NCBI GenBank assembly: GCA_028874195.1
Contig: JAPPLM010000058.1
Span: forward strand, 1-46,683
Source: Chloroflexota bacterium
GTDB taxonomy: Bacteria > Chloroflexota > UBA11872 > VXOZ01
DNA: 46,683 nucleotides
Direction: 5' to 3'
The translations under genes were made by a program, and so were the position numbers. Every line of letters starts with the position of its first letter. The first letter of the stretch is position 1. Below, one piece after another: positions 30,815-45,639 of the stretch. The notes beneath the pieces were generated by a model. It searched no databases. It was not told the DNA's origin and saw nothing but the letters and a program-made list of their open reading frames with translations.

Positions 30815-31267
30815 TTAGGCGTTTAGGAAGAGCGCCAGGAGGACTCCTTGAATTGTCACAATCAGGGCGACCGCGGCAATCAGCATTGCGCCCAGACGGA
30901 TCATCATGCGTTGTTCCAATGATACGAAGCGCGCATCCACCGAATCGAACCGCGCATCCACACGCAATTCCAATTCGCGCAGATCGGCTTTGGTAGCTTG
31001 CTCCGATGCTTGCAGATCGGATCTGAGGGATTGTTCCAACGTTTGCAGATCGGATCTGAGGGATTGTTCCAACGCTTGCAGATCGGCCTTGGTCGCTTGT
31101 TCCAGTGCTTGCAGGTCGGCTTTGGTGGCCATATCTGCTATATCGGCTTTCGTAGCCAGAGAGTTACCGGATTCGCTCAGCGTCTCGATCAGGGTTTGCG
31201 CTTGGGTCTCCGTGAAGCCTCCGGCCGCGAGCGCGGTGTAGGCTTTGTGGGTGTCAAAGATTGCCAT
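30815..31267 (-). CDS. coiled-coil membrane-anchored protein with 11-residue repeats (DUF1640-like)
   Basis: This 150-residue protein has a short globular N-terminus (1-35, AYTALAAGGFTETQAQTLIE), a repeat region and a C-terminal membrane helix (about 126-148). The repeats have an 11-residue period: units such as ATKADLQALEQ, SLRSDLQTLEQ, SLRSDLQASEQ and ATKADLRELEL (about 45-98). In the DNA they are near-identical 33-base units between about 30970 and 31135. An 11-residue period predicts a slightly right-handed coiled coil. The layout resembles the DUF1640/CCDC90 family. The ATG at 31267 has AAGGAG upstream. A short relative with the same C-terminal end lies at 18277-18537. The function is unknown. 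Confidence 0.8.
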   Translation of the reverse strand: MAIFDTHKAYTALAAGGFTETQAQTLIETLSESGNSLATKADIADMATKADLQALEQATKADLQALEQSLRSDLQTLEQSLRSDLQASEQATKADLRELELRVDARFDSVDARFVSLEQRMMIRLGAMLIAAVALIVTIQGVLLALFLNA

Positions 31268-33558: not shown

Positions 33559-33936
33559 TCACCGTCCTCGTACGCTTGCATAGTACCAGAAAGCGCACTT
33601 TTGTAGGGTACTGCAAGAGAAGATAAGTGTTGCTTGTCCCTACCACATCGTTGCTTCAGAGTATGAAGCCCAGGATGGTGTGACATGCGACAAATGTGTG
33701 CGGTTTCAAGCGCGCACCGATGTGCGGCGCGATGGCCGATTCACGAATGCATTCTGCGACCTAAGGGAGCGACAAGACCTTCTTCTTCAGACGAAATGTT
33801 CGGCTCGCCAGAATGAGTGAAGGTTCGGACGGGAGGTGGTGAACTTACGTAAGGCCTCGGAGTCGAGCCTCACCTATGAGGCAATGTAGCAGTCGCTCGC
33901 ACACTCCGACTCTCATTAACTAGGCTCTGTCGTCTG

Positions 33937-34863
33937 CTAGCGACTCGGCAACCCAGTTGCATTTGCCGCAGCTACAGTCCAATCCTCTACCTTAGTCATA
34001 ACACACTGTCTGACTTGATTGCTATAGTCTACGATTCTGCACCTATCAAATAGCAGGCCAGCATCAGAGGCAAGATTGTAAAAGTCTCCCTGGGGCAGTG
34101 CCTCAGCTATGAAAAACATCCGTAAAGGCACCAAAGCGGGCCTTGAATGCATCCACTTGGCACAGAAAGAGTCCGGTCGCAAATTGGGAGCATCATCACT
34201 ATAGTGCGTTCCGGTCTTGCATTGACCAAATGCTATGACCTTACCTGGAAATCCATCCGAAAAGTGTTTCCACGCTACGACATCCAGCTTTCCGTCTCTT
34301 TCATGCCCCTGTTTATCACCCTTGGGCTCGTACCCATTGCCTTCCTTTATGTTTGCACAGAGGCAATCAACTTTTTCCTCAAATCTGGAGCTTCCATCGG
34401 AAGTGCCAAACACCATGCTCTCAGAACGGTCGCCAAAGTAATCCCTACTTGCTTCTGCTGAAAGCTCTTCGAACAATAACGTCCCATCAATACCAGCGTG
34501 AATTCGGTCACTCTTCATATTCAGTCGCGTAGCCAGAAGCAGATACTTGTAAATGGCCTGCTTACCGTTGCTTTTGCAAGGAGGAGGGTAGAGCGTAACG
34601 CCATTCTCACCCAGGCAAAACGGGTAACCTTCTCCGCATGCCTCGATACGCCTTTGAATTTCTGAGTATGCCCTCTGAGCGTACCTGGGGATTTCTTCCT
34701 CTTCTTCGACCCCACCAGAGTGTTCATAGTCGGCAACTCTGCCAAGCGATCTTTCCAATGCCACTGCTGACGTGAATCCTGTCTGCCAGCAGCTCAATTC
34801 CACAAAGTCGGCAAGTTCGTGCTCATCCGCTAGTGGGGACGGTACCCCTGGCCACTTGAACAT
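33937..34863 (-). CDS. PD-(D/E)xK-like nuclease, third gene of methyltransferase/ParB cassette
   Basis: This 308-residue protein has no close named match that I recognise. Its second half looks like a restriction-endonuclease fold: acidic FEELSAEA (131-138), GKLDVVAWK with Asp194, and the strand VIAFGQCKTG with a Q-x-K pair (Gln214, Lys216), as in QxK variants of the PD-(D/E)xK core. The first 130 residues are acidic with Cys-containing stretches and may recognise DNA. The ATG at 34863 shares a base with the stop of the ParB-like gene (TGATG) and has AGGGA upstream, so it is translationally coupled. G+C is lower than in neighbouring housekeeping genes. Role as the restriction part of a defence system is inferred. 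Confidence 0.65.
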   Translation of the reverse strand: MFKWPGVPSPLADEHELADFVELSCWQTGFTSAVALERSLGRVADYEHSGGVEEEEEIPRYAQRAYSEIQRRIEACGEGYPFCLGENGVTLYPPPCKSNGKQAIYKYLLLATRLNMKSDRIHAGIDGTLLFEELSAEASRDYFGDRSESMVFGTSDGSSRFEEKVDCLCANIKEGNGYEPKGDKQGHERDGKLDVVAWKHFSDGFPGKVIAFGQCKTGTHYSDDAPNLRPDSFCAKWMHSRPALVPLRMFFIAEALPQGDFYNLASDAGLLFDRCRIVDYSNQVRQCVMTKVEDWTVAAANATGLPSR

Positions 34864-35966
34864 CAACCGTCCCTTGCAGTCTTCGGCTTTCGGCGAGGAC
34901 TATGCTTCCTGTACATATCGTCGTAGAGATCTACAGCCAACTCCGCAACATCGTTAGCAACAGTCAATAGTTGGTCAGAACCGTCGTAACCCGTTGACAC
35001 CAGGCTTCTAGCCTTCTCTAAATCTCTCTTTGCTTCGTATAGGGCCTCTTCAAAGACATTGGATGAAGGTCTGCTGATCTCAAAAGCGATTGTTAGCTCT
35101 TTGCCGGCGCGTAGGGCGGCAACGGCTTCACCGTCCTTTAGCACTTCATTCAGGTGCCTGAGGTCAGGATTCTGCGATCGAATGACGGGGCGCCTATCGT
35201 CCCTCTTGCTACCGTACAACCAGATGCAAAGTTCCCTTAATTCCTCTTTCCTGTCGGCAGGGACCGGTTCAGCGTTTTCTTCGGTTTCCGGTAGCAAGCC
35301 GATGAAGGATGAAATTCCATCGTAGTCGATTCCGGTATAGAGATGGGAAAACGAAAAGTGTCTATTGTACCGATCCTCGCGGTTGAAGAGTCCCATACTC
35401 TCCGCCTGTTCAATCACCATCAGGCCTCTAAACAACCTCTGGACGGTCTTGTGGGTATCACCAATCTGCCTAGCAATGTCCTCTAAAGGCACTCCAAAGT
35501 CTCTGTGCACATCAGCGATGTATTGAGACTTAGCATAACTGCTCCACTTGGCTGGGCCGTTTACATGCTTGAAACCAAGATATTGCCAAGCGTCTTCCCG
35601 GGTACTGATCAGGACAGGAAGTTCGAGGAGTGCGGCACTGTCTTTAGGAGTGATGACTGGAACATCATCACCAAAGTCTCCTGCAAAAGTGGGATCCAAC
35701 AGCACCTTAACCGCTGCAAGACGCCTATTTCCCTCAATAACGACATTTCTTCCATCTTCTTTAGCGACAATGATGGGTTCGTGAGAAAAGAAACCACTGG
35801 CTGCTATGGACAGTACGAGCTCTCGCACATCCATAGCTTCCCACAGCACTCTTATCACATCCACGTCAGTAGAGTTCGCACCCAGTTCATACTCGGAGAG
35901 CCTGGGATTCTTGAGGTCGAAGTCTAGTTCCGACACTTTCATCGTAGGATGCACTTGGGTACTCAT
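34863..35966 (-). CDS. ParB-like nuclease-domain protein, second gene of cassette
   Basis: This 367-residue protein begins with a ParB/Srx-like domain: the NPR box (20-22), ELVLSIAASGFFSHEPIIV, and a box II variant EGNRRLAA (78-85) in place of GERRxRA. A helix-turn-helix follows (about 160-182, VPLEDIARQIGDTHKTVQRL), as in ParB/KorB proteins. The second half, charged and helical, was not recognised. The position between an adenine methyltransferase and a nuclease-like gene, with 3-base and 1-base junctions, argues for a function in DNA modification or defence rather than chromosome partitioning; no ParA gene is near. The ATG at 35966 begins MSTQVHPTMKVSELDF. Confidence 0.8.
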   Translation of the reverse strand: MSTQVHPTMKVSELDFDLKNPRLSEYELGANSTDVDVIRVLWEAMDVRELVLSIAASGFFSHEPIIVAKEDGRNVVIEGNRRLAAVKVLLDPTFAGDFGDDVPVITPKDSAALLELPVLISTREDAWQYLGFKHVNGPAKWSSYAKSQYIADVHRDFGVPLEDIARQIGDTHKTVQRLFRGLMVIEQAESMGLFNREDRYNRHFSFSHLYTGIDYDGISSFIGLLPETEENAEPVPADRKEELRELCIWLYGSKRDDRRPVIRSQNPDLRHLNEVLKDGEAVAALRAGKELTIAFEISRPSSNVFEEALYEAKRDLEKARSLVSTGYDGSDQLLTVANDVAELAVDLYDDMYRKHSPRRKPKTARDG

Positions 35967-35969
35967 TGT

Positions 35970-36869
35970 TCATTTCCTTGCCGGTGCTTCCTCAGACTCT
36001 CGCTCTTCTGCATCGAACGAAGTAGTGGGAGAAGCAAGTAGGACGTGGGAAGGTGAGACTAAGAGTTCTTGAACCTCTCTGCGTCCCTGCAGACTGTATT
36101 CCAAGGGTATGACGGAAATCTCCGATGCTGTGTATAAGTCCCTAATGAATTCTGTATCGTCATAGGACATTATCCACTTGAAGCTTCTTTGTCTCTGGAT
36201 GTAATGTGCCAACTCTACATGATCCCGATCATTGTAATAGGTCATATACAGTCGGTTACCATTCGAGTAATACGGAGGATCCAAATATGCGAATGCGGTG
36301 CTTTCGTCCTGTGTGCTTGACAAAATCTCCTTCAAGAATTCGAGGGCGTCCATGTTGGTAACATGAATTTGCTCTCTTCGTGACCCAATTGCAAGAATGC
36401 GCTCTGACAGTCTTTCTCTATAGAAGCGGGCATCAATTTTCCACTCTCCTGCTTGCTGATAACCACCAATAGGGGCAGCACCAGAAATTATGCCTGATCG
36501 GTTGCAGCGGTTGAGATAGAAAGTCGCAAAGCCAAGCTGAAAAGGTTCGCCCGCATCGGCAATCTGATATATTTCTAGCTGTTTTTTCCACTCATCAATG
36601 CTCAATGGGATGGACATGATTTCTTTGGCAAATCGATCAGGTTCGTTTAGAACTGCGTACCAAAATGAAATGATATGAGGGTCTAGGTCGTTCAGAAAAA
36701 GCTTTGAAACTACCCCTTCCCGGAGAAGCCGCAGTGCTGCCCCTGCTCCGCCCGCGAACGGCTCATAGTAGGAACAGCCAGACAAGCAATTGGCCTCAAT
36801 GATGCTTGCTAAGAGAGGAGCGAGTGTCGCTTTTCCTCCTGGATACCTAAGCGGACTATCAAATCTCAA
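35970..36869 (-). CDS. D12-class (Dam-like) DNA adenine methyltransferase, first gene of cassette
   Basis: This 299-residue enzyme would methylate the N6 of adenine using S-adenosylmethionine. It carries the D12-class marks: SPLRYPGGK at the N-terminus, motif I as EPFAGGAGAAL (36-46), NDLDPHIISFW, and the catalytic DPPY (197-200) in AYLDPPYYSNG. The target sequence is not readable from motifs; the LYMTYYNDRDH segment after DPPY differs from E. coli Dam. The start is TTG at 36869 with AGGAG ten bases upstream; a TTG at 36887 is an alternative without a site. It opens a three-gene unit with the ParB-like and nuclease-like genes. G+C is low relative to the window, suggesting transfer. Confidence 0.88.
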   Translation of the reverse strand: MRFDSPLRYPGGKATLAPLLASIIEANCLSGCSYYEPFAGGAGAALRLLREGVVSKLFLNDLDPHIISFWYAVLNEPDRFAKEIMSIPLSIDEWKKQLEIYQIADAGEPFQLGFATFYLNRCNRSGIISGAAPIGGYQQAGEWKIDARFYRERLSERILAIGSRREQIHVTNMDALEFLKEILSSTQDESTAFAYLDPPYYSNGNRLYMTYYNDRDHVELAHYIQRQRSFKWIMSYDDTEFIRDLYTASEISVIPLEYSLQGRREVQELLVSPSHVLLASPTTSFDAEERESEEAPARK

Positions 36870-36887
36870 TCCTGACTGGCTCCTCAA

Positions 36888-37199
36888 GTTTCTAAAACAC
36901 TACCTACCGTCCAGCCACTACGTCCATTTTTGCCTATGGCTGCGGTGAAAGCAACCAAGCAGTTCAGTTGTAATCATGATGCACCTCCCTACTTTCCTGA
37001 TGCGATTGCCAATGAGAAGTAAGACCTTGTTAGATTTCATCTATTCGGTGGTTGGCTGAGCACTAAGGGAGATTTCAATGAACTACACAAGGAGTGTTAC
37101 GATAGAATCCTTAGAGTTGGAAATACACGGGTTCCGCTCACAGGATAGTCTGTATTGTACCCGCATGATCCTTGCACATGATCAAAACCACGCCAGGCA
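36888..37199. other. divergent spacer between methyltransferase cassette and alkD-like gene
   Basis: No gene is seen. The region is relatively A+T-rich. The direct repeat CATGATC occurs at 37164-37170 and 37177-37183, just before the alkD-like start, placing two GATC sites 13 bases apart. No clear promoter was identified. Confidence 0.35.
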
Positions 37200-41322: not shown

Positions 41323-42447
41323 TTGAACCTCCCGCACCATAGGTTGTTTGTGCTCGGCGCAGGATTTTCGAAGCCTGCCGGCTTTCCCCTTGCAATGGAA
41401 CTCTTAGAAGATGTCAGAGAGTCTATCCGATGGATCTATAGGGAAGGAAACAAATTTGAACAAGAGATTCAAGAGTGGATAGATTTATACCCAGGCACAT
41501 GTATCGACTTAGAACGCGTACTTGCGTATAGCCATAGGAAACACTACCTGCAACTATCAGGTTCTGATGAATACTTTGATCATGACAGCGTGTCCATAGT
41601 CATTGCGTTGAGGGAAGTCCAGCAAAAACTCATTGATTCAACTCCAAGCGCTGCCCCAGCCCTATATAGGCAATTTGCCAGACGACTGTGCCCGCATGAC
41701 GTAGTGCTTACCTTCAATTACGACACGCTCTTAGAGCAAGCTCTTGACGAAATTGGTAAGCAGTACACACTAACCCCTGAATACTGGCTGGAAGGCGGTG
41801 ATTCCCACGAGAGTCGAAAGTATGTTGACCTATTGAAACTCCACGGGTCAATTGACTGGTATGACCGCTATTACCTTGATAGTGCTATGCGGTCATACGC
41901 CGAGAAAGGTCTTGATGTTCCCAACCGGGACCCTATCTTCGGACCAAATCCGACAGTTCCAACCGAACCTCTCTCACGGGGCCAAACTGGTGAGCTCGGC
42001 CGTCATCTCCTTTCGCGAGTATTCCGTGTACCCAATCATGCAGCGTATTTCCCTATAGAAGGCGGTCTCGGTTCGCGCGTAGTACCCTTCATTCTCCCTC
42101 CGGCGTACGACAAATTACTTGGATACAATGCTATCGTTGACCTATGGCGCGGCCTCCATCGGACATTGGATGCCTTTTCCTCAATAGTTATGATTGGCTA
42201 CTCTATGCCTGCCCATGACAGTTACGCATACGAGGCTCTAGGCAGGGTCTTCGTTGACTATCAGAGGGGTGGAGACAAGACTTACTGGCAACAGAGGCGA
42301 GTTCCTATTCAGATAGTCACGGCAGACTGTTCAGATCAGTCCGCAATCAAGAGGATCCCGTTCCTTGATGGAGACAAGACGCGGGTGTGGCATAGGGGCT
42401 TCTCAATTGAGTCTTTGGATTGGATTGACTGGGGAGATGGAAAGTAA
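41323..42447 (+). CDS. SIR2-like domain protein, probable defence NADase
   Basis: This 374-residue protein has the SIR2_2-type NAD-binding domain: GAGFS (12-16) after a hydrophobic strand, TFNYDTLLEQAL with Asn132 and Asp134, LKLHGSIDW with His174, and VMIGYSMPAHD (289-299). Such bacterial SIR2-like proteins (as in Thoeris, DSR and related systems) are NAD-consuming effectors in antiphage defence rather than deacetylases; zinc-binding cysteines are absent. The start is TTG at 41323, because the GAGFS strand begins at once and no ATG precedes it; an AGGAGGG lies 14 bases upstream. G+C is clearly lower than in core genes. It converges with the type IIG-like gene and follows two small genes. Confidence 0.85.
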   Translation: MNLPHHRLFVLGAGFSKPAGFPLAMELLEDVRESIRWIYREGNKFEQEIQEWIDLYPGTCIDLERVLAYSHRKHYLQLSGSDEYFDHDSVSIVIALREVQQKLIDSTPSAAPALYRQFARRLCPHDVVLTFNYDTLLEQALDEIGKQYTLTPEYWLEGGDSHESRKYVDLLKLHGSIDWYDRYYLDSAMRSYAEKGLDVPNRDPIFGPNPTVPTEPLSRGQTGELGRHLLSRVFRVPNHAAYFPIEGGLGSRVVPFILPPAYDKLLGYNAIVDLWRGLHRTLDAFSSIVMIGYSMPAHDSYAYEALGRVFVDYQRGGDKTYWQQRRVPIQIVTADCSDQSAIKRIPFLDGDKTRVWHRGFSIESLDWIDWGDGK

Positions 42448-42525: not shown

Positions 42526-45500
42526 TTACAACCGTCGGTTGGAGATGACGGGTTCGGAGGCGAGGAGGTGGCGGAGGGTGCTGAGGTCGGGGAGGTTGAG
42601 GATTTGGGAAATACCGTCGTCGAGGGCGCGGCGGGCGGGGCAGTGGGCCATATTGGGGAGACGCTCGAATTCGGCAGTGGACAGGCGGTCGAAGAGGCAG
42701 GAGAGTTCTTGAAGCTGGGAGGCGGAGAGGCAGCGCGGGTCTAGGACGGGCAAGTCTTGCAGGTCGGCCTTCTTCATGGCGACCCAACCTCCCTCGGTGC
42801 TAGTGCGTTGTGCCAGGACGGTCAATAGTCCTAGTGAGGAATTTAGCCACACCACTAGTGCTCTTTCGATTGCGATTTCCTCAATTTGGACAGGCCACCA
42901 CACGTTGGACAGCACGTTCTTTTCAGATCGCATTGCGACTATCCTAGCGGTGTCGAGCCGCAGCCGCTCGGAGATAAGAAGCCGACCAGATTGTTGCCAG
43001 AGGTGTTCACCATACCCTGGCCGCTGTCCGCCTCTTGGCTTTACTAGTGGCGAAAGATAGGCATCAGGCGAACACGCCAGGGTCTTTCTTTGCTCCGTGT
43101 CGTGTCCTTCAACCATAGGATACGCAGTGATCGAACTTGTCCTGTCGAATCCGTCAACGAGTCTGCGTCTGTCGGGGCCGATTTCACCGAGTTCTCCTAA
43201 CCGGCACAGCGGAATGCTGCCGGATGACTCCGCGCCGGGGACCCAGACTTCCCCATGGTCCAATAAGCGAAAGGCGCTGCGGGTCACGTCGGCGCGGGCG
43301 AATTGGACGCCGAACCACTGCTTGCCGGACAGATCAGATTCAGAAATCGAGACCACTTCGCCCACGTGTTGGTCGTCGACTTCCAAGAGCGCGGCGCCGG
43401 ATGCCTCCAATTTCGACGGCTCGGTGACGCTCACGGCTTGCGCTATCCGGTGCGCGACTGTCGGGCCGTCCGGGTTTTGCCAGAGGTTGACGAAGGTGGT
43501 GCGGGGCTGGGCGGCATCCTGTTGCTCAGAAGGCTGGAGTTCCGCTTCTGGTTTCTCGCTTGCGCGGGACTCGTCACTCCGGCGGAGGCCGGAGTCCAGG
43601 GCGTGGGGCGAAGAGGAAGATGAAGATGGATTCCCGCTTTCGCGGGAATGACGGAGCGGGGCGCGGGAATGACGGTCAGAAGAGCAGCTTCCCGTTTGGG
43701 GAGGCGGTTGCGCAGCGTCTTGGCGCGAGTCGCCCGCAGTCTCTGGATTCCGGCTTGCGCCGGAATGACGGATGGAAGGGGGATGACGGTTTGGAGCGCG
43801 GGAGCGGCGCGTGGCGATGAGGAGCGCTTCCGAGAGGTCGGTGCTGTCGGAGAAGTTCCAACGTTGGGGGTCGTGGGAGGTAATGACCACGTCGAGGGTG
43901 AAGTCGCGCTCGATGAGGGCGCGGGTCTGCGCCCAGGAGGGGCCGGTGCAAACGGTGAGCGGCAAGACCAACGCCAAGCGTCCTTCGTTGGGCAGCATCT
44001 TGTCTGAAACGGCGGCCACAAACGCGGCGCCAAGTCCGGCGGTCGCCGACGCCTGCCGCTGCTTGAGGCGGCGCGAAAGCTCGTCTTGCAGTCTGCGCCG
44101 TTCTGACCCAGGCTTGCTGCCGAACAGCAGATTGCCGCCTACGGAGCGCGTAAACGGCGGGTTCATGATCGCCAGGTCAAGTCTCGGCAGCTTTGCCGTC
44201 TGGCGCTCCGCCGTTTCGCCGGGCCCGCCGCCGCTCACCGGCCCCACGTCTTGGCGCGCCCCCGATTCGTCCGGCGACAGGGCGTGTTGCACCAACGCTT
44301 CGTCCGTTCCCAGGTAGTCCAGCGACCCCAGATTGACGCGCTCGCCTTCCACGCCCAGGGGCATGACGTGGAGATTCATGCGGTCGAACTCGATGTGCGG
44401 ATTGAGCATTGCCAGGCTGGTGGCGGCAAAGTGGATGGCGGAAAGCTGCACGTCGTAGCCGTGCAAGGCTTGTTCCACCATGGCCTTGTGGAGCGCGGCG
44501 GCGCGGTTGCCGCCGGCGGCCTTGTGGCGTCGTTCCGCTTCCGCGGCCACCGCCATGAGCAGGGTGCCGGTGCCGCAGGCCAGGTCGGCCACGCTCAGGG
44601 AGGCGGGAAACTCGTGGTCGCGCCAGTCAACGCCCGCCGGCCACTCGTGGAAGACCAGCCGCGTCAGCAGCGTGGCCGCCGGCACCGACGTATAGTACGC
44701 GCCGGTGAACTTGGCGTCGGATAGGAGCGTGTGGAAGAGCCGGCCGGAGAGGTCGTGGCCCTCCACGTTGCGCGTTTCGCCAACCGCCTTGACCAGAGGC
44801 GCGATGACGGGCGCCTGAACCTCATCAGGACCATCCAGCAACACGTCCAGGATGTCGGCGGCCAGTTTGAAGACCGGCACGTAGTCGATGTTCTCGCAGA
44901 TGAAGCGCCAGGCGTTCCGCAAGCTGGGAATGCCCTGGCGCGAGGCTTCACGCACCGTCTCTACGTCATCGTTGACGACGGCGAGGCGGTCTTGGAACGC
45001 GAGCGCGTTGAAGAGCGCCAGACAGCCGATGCGCAGGGCGGCGGCGCGGTCCTTCTCCTGGTCGGTTTCCGCGATGAGGTGGGCGACGCGGCCAGCGATG
45101 CGCCGGTGTCGGTCTAGCCGGTATGCCGCTTGATCCAGCGCGTATGCGATGCTGCCCGCGGCGGCCTGCACCTGGTCGACGCCTTGCAGTTCCAGCGGCA
45201 GCGCGCGCAAATGGTCGGCGAGGTCGGCAACCGACCCTCTGCTCAGCCGCGGCAGGGCCGGCGGCGTATCCGGGTCCAGGTCGAACAGCGTCGGCATGCG
45301 CGCCTGCCACCACTGAAGGTCCCTGGCTGCCGCCAGCGCGGCCGCGGCATCCTGAGCGTGACGCAGCCGGCTGGGATAGAGCACGCCCAGCGCGGCAATC
45401 GCCTCGGGAAACGCGCTCCGGCGTTGCCGCAGTTGGGCATCCAGTTCCCGTTGCCCCCCTTGCCACTTGCATTCGAGGAGGATCAGGCCGCTGCGCAGGG

Positions 45501-45639
45501 TAACGCGCGCGTCCGGCGCGCCCGGCCGGCTGCGGCGCTCCGGTCTGGCCGGCACGCCGCGCGCGGTGAGCATCTGCGCGAGCACGACGTTCAGGACTTC
45601 TTCACGATTGACTTCGGATTCTTTGACTCGTGCTGTCAT
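42526..45639 (-). CDS. type IIG-like restriction-methylase fusion with repeat-derived insert
   Basis: This 1037-residue protein combines nuclease, methylase and target-recognition parts. At the N-terminus a PD-(D/E)xK site is visible (Asp43 in APDARV and E-x-K at 56-58 in LLECKW). The methylase has GAYYTSVPAATLL, motif I as ADLACGTGTL (351-360) and the amino-methylase motif IV NPPF (493-496), so it would methylate adenine. The C-terminal half (about 720-1037, with VNLWQNPDG, SSLGLLTVLAQR and KKADLQDLPV) resembles specificity domains. Residues about 614-713 translate R1 repeats (HSGASRNP, HSRESGNP, LDSGLRRSDE) and are an in-frame insert between methylase and specificity region. The ATG is at 45639. 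It could also be grouped with Pgl/DISARM-like methylases. Confidence 0.85.
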   Translation of the reverse strand: MTARVKESEVNREEVLNVVLAQMLTARGVPARPERRSRPGAPDARVTLRSGLILLECKWQGGQRELDAQLRQRRSAFPEAIAALGVLYPSRLRHAQDAAAALAAARDLQWWQARMPTLFDLDPDTPPALPRLSRGSVADLADHLRALPLELQGVDQVQAAAGSIAYALDQAAYRLDRHRRIAGRVAHLIAETDQEKDRAAALRIGCLALFNALAFQDRLAVVNDDVETVREASRQGIPSLRNAWRFICENIDYVPVFKLAADILDVLLDGPDEVQAPVIAPLVKAVGETRNVEGHDLSGRLFHTLLSDAKFTGAYYTSVPAATLLTRLVFHEWPAGVDWRDHEFPASLSVADLACGTGTLLMAVAAEAERRHKAAGGNRAAALHKAMVEQALHGYDVQLSAIHFAATSLAMLNPHIEFDRMNLHVMPLGVEGERVNLGSLDYLGTDEALVQHALSPDESGARQDVGPVSGGGPGETAERQTAKLPRLDLAIMNPPFTRSVGGNLLFGSKPGSERRRLQDELSRRLKQRQASATAGLGAAFVAAVSDKMLPNEGRLALVLPLTVCTGPSWAQTRALIERDFTLDVVITSHDPQRWNFSDSTDLSEALLIATRRSRAPNRHPPSIRHSGASRNPETAGDSRQDAAQPPPQTGSCSSDRHSRAPLRHSRESGNPSSSSSSPHALDSGLRRSDESRASEKPEAELQPSEQQDAAQPRTTFVNLWQNPDGPTVAHRIAQAVSVTEPSKLEASGAALLEVDDQHVGEVVSISESDLSGKQWFGVQFARADVTRSAFRLLDHGEVWVPGAESSGSIPLCRLGELGEIGPDRRRLVDGFDRTSSITAYPMVEGHDTEQRKTLACSPDAYLSPLVKPRGGQRPGYGEHLWQQSGRLLISERLRLDTARIVAMRSEKNVLSNVWWPVQIEEIAIERALVVWLNSSLGLLTVLAQRTSTEGGWVAMKKADLQDLPVLDPRCLSASQLQELSCLFDRLSTAEFERLPNMAHCPARRALDDGISQILNLPDLSTLRHLLASEPVISNRRL
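43501..43800. repeat. R1 repeat cluster inside the type IIG-like gene
   Basis: R1 copies lie at 43572-43600, 43625-43654 and 43741-43770, plus a fragment at 43663-43675. All arms pair. The block is about 300 bases, a multiple of three, and leaves the reading frame open. Confidence 0.85.

Follow-up and report, generated by a model that had tools for sequence, protein, structure and literature searches.

A candidate mobile restriction-modification cassette built around a ParB/KorB-like protein and a predicted PD-(D/E)XK nuclease

Nearest described systems

PD-lambda-5 is the nearest described relative of the cassette reported here. The anti-phage activity of PD-lambda-5 is experimental, and it has been described as a compacted RM+Abi system (PMC9519451), whereas the present cassette is known from sequence and models. 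The two share a D12 methyltransferase of the PADLOC PD-Lambda-5_B family, with 40% identity between the enzyme in the window (the whole 46,683-nucleotide stretch of DNA analysed) and one from a PD-lambda-5 locus, and a ParB-like protein that is homologous over approximately the first 200 residues (HHalign 99.7%). Beyond this the two diverge. PD-lambda-5_A is a single chain, mostly about 420-600 aa in PADLOC, with a long C-terminus of its own, and its two genes come without a separate winged-helix PD-(D/E)XK gene, whereas here that third gene is adjacent in nearly all relatives. That the PD-lambda-5_A C-terminus is a hidden fused nuclease is ruled out by an HHalign probability of 0.3% to the present nuclease. 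At two loci (L100:272-4430 and L109:422-4586), the present ParB-nuclease pair stands in the same array as a PD-lambda-5-like ParB and a single D12 methyltransferase, as if one methyltransferase served two effectors. The shared methyltransferase and ParB N-terminus, the unrelated C-terminus and nuclease, and these mixed arrays suggest that PD-lambda-5 and the present cassette may use one methyltransferase-ParB chassis with differing effectors.

Like Type II restriction-modification (RM) systems, including the heteromeric Type IIT, the cassette links a restriction-enzyme-fold nuclease gene, with a predicted PD-(D/E)XK fold and conserved D/D/Q/K residues, to a methyltransferase gene of varying class. 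Unlike them, it has an obligate ParB-fold partner with a predicted nucleotide site, and ParB goes unmentioned in a 2014 review of the Type II enzymes (PMC4081073). The concept of a ParB-superfamily NTPase that controls a nuclease is shared with GmrSD (PMC12839542) and with SspE, which sets the precedent for such a protein licensing a nuclease (PMC13251355). SspE, however, joins a DUF262 domain bearing DGQQR to HNH, whereas in the cassette one gene encodes a ParB/KorB-type fold bearing EGNRR and another the PD-(D/E)XK nuclease; no DUF262 or HNH (DUF1524) Pfam domain is found in the ParB-like protein or the nuclease at E 1. MspJI and AspBHI, whose PD-(D/E)XK domain ranks with the top fold matches of the nuclease, are stand-alone modification-dependent enzymes, but the cassette nuclease has a preceding winged helix, a ParB partner, and a methyltransferase.

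The PADLOC candidate PDC-M38A, compared by its PADLOC model alone and with no publication found in the papers searched, has an N-terminal half in the same ParB family, and the model is matched by window 34863-35966 and by L163:4929-6086. PDC-M38A differs in being a single long protein (715 aa) to which the cassette nuclease has no match. In phages, ParB-like proteins are used in the vicinity of methyltransferases and terminases (PMC6536676); phage papers describe ParB fused to a methyltransferase or close to replication genes, but not this gene set. No described system of ParB, nuclease, and methyltransferase was found in Pfam, PADLOC, or the open-access literature searched, which most subscription journals fall outside. 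Within those sources the cassette is undescribed, as the original prediction had surmised of its composition.

Cassette layout and genomic setting

The cassette lies within a segment that is missing from the same site in relatives of the genus:

33634..37180, no strand assigned: extent of the segment that genus relatives lack at this position, lying between a MarR regulator and a DNA alkylation repair gene
35970..36887, minus strand: D12-class (Dam-like) adenine-N6 DNA methyltransferase, 305 aa from TTG
34863..35966, minus strand: ParB/KorB/Noc-like protein, 367 aa
33937..34863, minus strand: predicted nuclease subunit, 308 aa from ATG or 309 aa from a TTG at 34866

None of the three frames is interrupted, and each retains its key motifs. 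The methyltransferase gene comes first, followed after a 3-base gap by the ParB-like gene, which runs into the nuclease gene through a TGATG overlap (34865-34861). G+C is 0.47-0.50 per kb in the cassette versus about 0.55-0.67 across most of the window. The original prediction had given this minus-strand layout, with its gap and overlap, and the lower G+C, and both hold on window coordinates. Its call of a D12 adenine methyltransferase is likewise upheld by Pfam (MethyltransfD12, 2.4e-19); the protein also matches PADLOC PD-Lambda-5_B (PDLC04018, 7.3e-102) and retains intact FAGGAG and DPPY motifs. A second TTG, 18 bases inside the methyltransferase gene and behind AGGAG, may be the true start.

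The cassette is an accessory insertion, missing at this site from two congeneric genomes (G077 and G301). There the sequence on its left aligns up to 33633 and that on its right resumes at 37181 or 37224, at 82-84% identity and with about 0.4-0.5 kb between the two. Both genomes lack any nuclease relative, and a search of G077 recovered no relative of ParB. Distribution across the phylum is patchy, with the nuclease carried by 7 of 400 sampled genomes. The grouping of the three genes is more than chance: their relatives occur together in G069 and at many other loci.

No ParA ATPase gene sits directly beside the ParB-like gene, whose neighbors in the window are the D12 methyltransferase, the nuclease, the MarR regulator, and the DNA alkylation repair gene. 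Two genes 4-9 kb from the cassette are possibly a second defence patch: one encodes a 374-aa SIR2_2-domain protein (41323-42447, plus strand; Pfam 4e-9, with weak PADLOC SIR2 matches), the other a 1037-aa protein with N6-type DNA methyltransferase motifs (42526-45639, minus strand). Elsewhere in the window, a small protein (30815-31267, minus strand) repeats a 'TKADLQALEQ'-like coiled-coil segment and has a C-terminus that is hydrophobic.

Predicted folds and active sites

The ParB-like protein is divided into a ParB-CTPase fold (residues ~4-138), a helix-turn-helix (HTH; ~140-190), a middle region, and a helical C-terminus (~300-357). Its AF2 model (pLDDT 94.2) matches KorB (Z 11.3 over residues 4-284), Noc (9.8), and ParB (9.5), in agreement with the original assignment to a ParB/Srx-like protein with an HTH, whereas the C-terminal helices gave no match to the ParB dimerisation domain. 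Sequence families capture the protein unevenly: Pfam gives no match even at E 1, the N-terminal half matches the PADLOC PD-Lambda-5_A models, and phrog_3694, of unknown function, matches nearly the whole protein. An EGNRR motif (E78-R82), invariant in 100 relatives, sits at the place of the P-motif arginine, a residue needed for NTP binding in ParB-fold proteins (PMC12704722). The fold and the conserved motif together predict a nucleotide site at EGNRR. When 28 ParB-fold proteins were assayed, 11 bound an NTP, some of them ATP or GTP and not CTP (PMC12704722). A third activity, such as sensing or loading, would fit the ParB-like member.

The nuclease model, built in AF2 from 116 sequences, is of comparable confidence (pLDDT 93.3, pTM 0.92). 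Residues ~12-115 form a winged helix that matches F-112, BrxR, and CapW. The domain at ~128-290 resembles PD-(D/E)XK enzymes, led by AF1548 (Z 8.0), PaqCI (7.7), MspJI (7.5), and BsmI and BsaWI (both 6.8), with further matches to Can2, Card1, FokI, AspBHI (6.1), HindIII, and AgeI; the values for MspJI and AspBHI are tied with those of other restriction nucleases. These Z values are modest singly, yet nearly all matches of the modelled domain are nucleases that share one fold. A viral structure library returned weak matches only, several to proteins named restriction endonuclease. By sequence, the nuclease and its profile had no relevant match among solved structures, the nuclease belongs to no Pfam or PADLOC family (Pfam none even at E 1), and it matches just two PHROGs, both of unknown function.

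Placement of the candidate active-site residues in the model follows the usual order of the PD-(D/E)XK core. Counted from the TTG, E133 lies in helix 128-144, D195 just ahead of strand 196-200, and Q215 and K217 where strand 210-217 ends; these correspond to E132, D194, Q214, and K216 from the ATG. Among the 116 relatives, D195 is invariant, as is a second Asp ahead of it (D191) that was absent from the original prediction; Q215 is kept in 111, and E133 in 87, with Gln in 19. The proposed E...D...QxK core thus stands insofar as the fold is modelled as PD-(D/E)XK and its residues are conserved, but the QxK lysine is not family-wide, since 67 of 116 relatives instead have a lysine ten residues after the Gln. 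Lysine occurs at 217 (QCK, the window type) in 48 relatives, at 225 (W-x-x-K) in 69, at both in two, and at neither in one, so that exactly one of the two positions is kept in 113 of 116. Two changes on the ParB tree suffice to account for these states, and a naive P value for the pattern is therefore not to be counted as independent evidence. Lysine shifts are known among PD-(D/E)XK enzymes, and the sequences of this family appear to show a clean case of the same kind.

A fixed pair and an exchangeable methyltransferase

Searched with a ParB profile, genomes yield more than 500 relatives and viral contigs 133; the viral relatives were missed by single-protein scans and found with alignment queries. 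Neighbourhoods were counted in the best 160 loci plus the window, setting aside loci cut by a contig end. The genome search covers the best 80 loci and one short conserved motif, and its frequencies describe relatives of this ParB, not genomes overall. The nuclease is directly downstream of ParB in 152 of 157 loci. When the search starts from the nuclease instead, 39 of 40 loci have ParB next to it, the exception beginning at the end of a sequence. ParB and nuclease are thus an almost obligate adjacent pair, with no gene fusion in the loci examined. Together with the enrichment of methyltransferases nearby, this pairing supports the original expectation that the three genes co-occur; rare co-occurrence is not what the searches returned.

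Relatives span at least a dozen phyla. Each of the P2-like phages Wphi, 12474III, and D14A carries the pair together with a C5 methyltransferase in convergent orientation. Wphi, whose copy is orf98-orf96-mth (L025), is a prophage of the laboratory strain E. coli W, and a D12-type cassette occurs in Pseudomonas yangonensis MY50 (L052). Among 5,426 complete E. coli genomes, 36 encode the pair, annotated as 'ParB N-terminal domain-containing protein' and 'hypothetical protein'. In one E. coli genome examined it adjoins the portal gene, and the area beside P2 portal genes is a defence hotspot (PMC9519451). Other gene sets also accompany the pair. At L036:2117-11030 it is preceded by C5-methyltransferase-like, HATPase, Z1, and DUF4420 (PD-(D/E)XK) genes, L032 likewise has a Z1 gene, and L027 has a C5-like gene and two ParB-nuclease pairs; at these loci the pair may have been built into another multi-gene system.

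Within four genes of ParB, in the same best 160 loci plus the window, the methyltransferase is of the D12 class in 82 loci, N6_N4 (by motif) in 22, and C5-cytosine in 44, all phage; examples of each class are confirmed by Pfam. Of the 473 ORFs at a distance of up to three genes, 146 encode methyltransferases, as against 6 of 459 farther off in the same loci. On the ParB tree, a quick tree with some weak branches, methyltransferase class changes at least seven times and position or strand at least 14 times. The methyltransferase is thus an interchangeable part around a fixed core of ParB and nuclease, as restriction-modification predicts. A few loci have the pair with no methyltransferase within four genes, including L072, where both proteins are full-length, and no shared operator-like palindrome was found upstream of D12-first cassettes.

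The cassette is best explained as a mobile RM system (probability roughly 0.74) whose restriction apparatus would consist of two proteins, a ParB/KorB-like NTPase being predicted to license or deliver the nuclease. The D12 methyltransferase would mark adenines at a host motif. The ParB-like protein would bind DNA via its HTH and a nucleotide via the EGNRR site, as its fold and conserved motif suggest, and would license or deliver its obligate partner, the winged-helix PD-(D/E)XK nuclease. The nuclease would then cut DNA without the mark, with methylation protecting the host. This reading draws on gene integrity, the predicted folds of nuclease and ParB, conserved active-site residues, near-obligate pairing in both search directions, methyltransferase exchange, and an accessory distribution that includes patchy presence, empty sites, and P2-like prophage copies beside the portal gene at a defence hotspot. 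Counted against it are the modest PD-(D/E)XK matches (best Z 8.0) with no sequence match among solved structures, pair loci lacking a nearby methyltransferase such as L072, the other gene sets such as L036, and the missing shared palindrome.

A specific form of this explanation is possible, if tentative: the ParB-like protein would load at an unmethylated parS-like site, close into a clamp with nucleotide bound, and slide, so that the nuclease it carries cuts away from the site. The KorB, Noc, and ParB fold match extends over the nucleotide-binding and HTH parts, and the invariant EGNRR lies where NTP binding requires the P-motif arginine, but only 11 of the 28 assayed ParB-fold proteins bound an NTP, in some cases ATP or GTP in place of CTP (PMC12704722), the C-terminal helices lack a dimerisation-domain match, and no loading site was found. 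An abortive defence like that of PD-lambda-5, in which the nuclease kills the cell once ParB detects either phage DNA or a methyltransferase under attack, is unlikely. It would account for the common D12 family and ParB N-terminus, for the arrays of L100 and L109 that hold both kinds, and for the RM+Abi description of PD-lambda-5; the nuclease, however, is unrelated to the PD-lambda-5_A C-terminus, and its core resembles DNA-cutting enzymes.

The appearance of the modification-dependent MspJI and AspBHI among the best nuclease matches raises the prospect of a type IV-like enzyme, in which ParB and nuclease cut foreign DNA that carries modifications and the methyltransferase serves another purpose. 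The winged helices of DpnI and HhiV4I sense m6A (PMC11037411). Tight linkage to three methyltransferase classes nevertheless fits self-protection, and cutting the mark of its own partner would presumably be lethal, making this reading rather improbable. A partition or replication module of ParB with an accessory nuclease is the most far-fetched alternative. The ParB fold and the phage ParB-like proteins near methyltransferases and terminases (PMC6536676) would suit it, but the neighbors in the window are regulatory, repair, and metabolic genes, the distribution is patchy, and neither the nuclease nor the switching methyltransferase would have a reason to be there.

If the RM reading is true, restriction-modification would gain a widespread family that goes unrecognized by Pfam, PADLOC, and RefSeq annotation, and PD-lambda-5 would be tied to a shared chassis. 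Orphan ParB-CTPase-fold proteins, a growing group (PMC12704722), would gain a job as the nucleotide-dependent licensing subunit of a nuclease. A more far-reaching and doubtful idea is that a CTP-switched sliding clamp of the ParB/KorB type, not an ATP-driven translocase, reads methylation at its loading site and delivers the nuclease; this would be a new mode of restriction and, with PD-lambda-5, might define a family of exchangeable effectors on one ParB-methyltransferase chassis.
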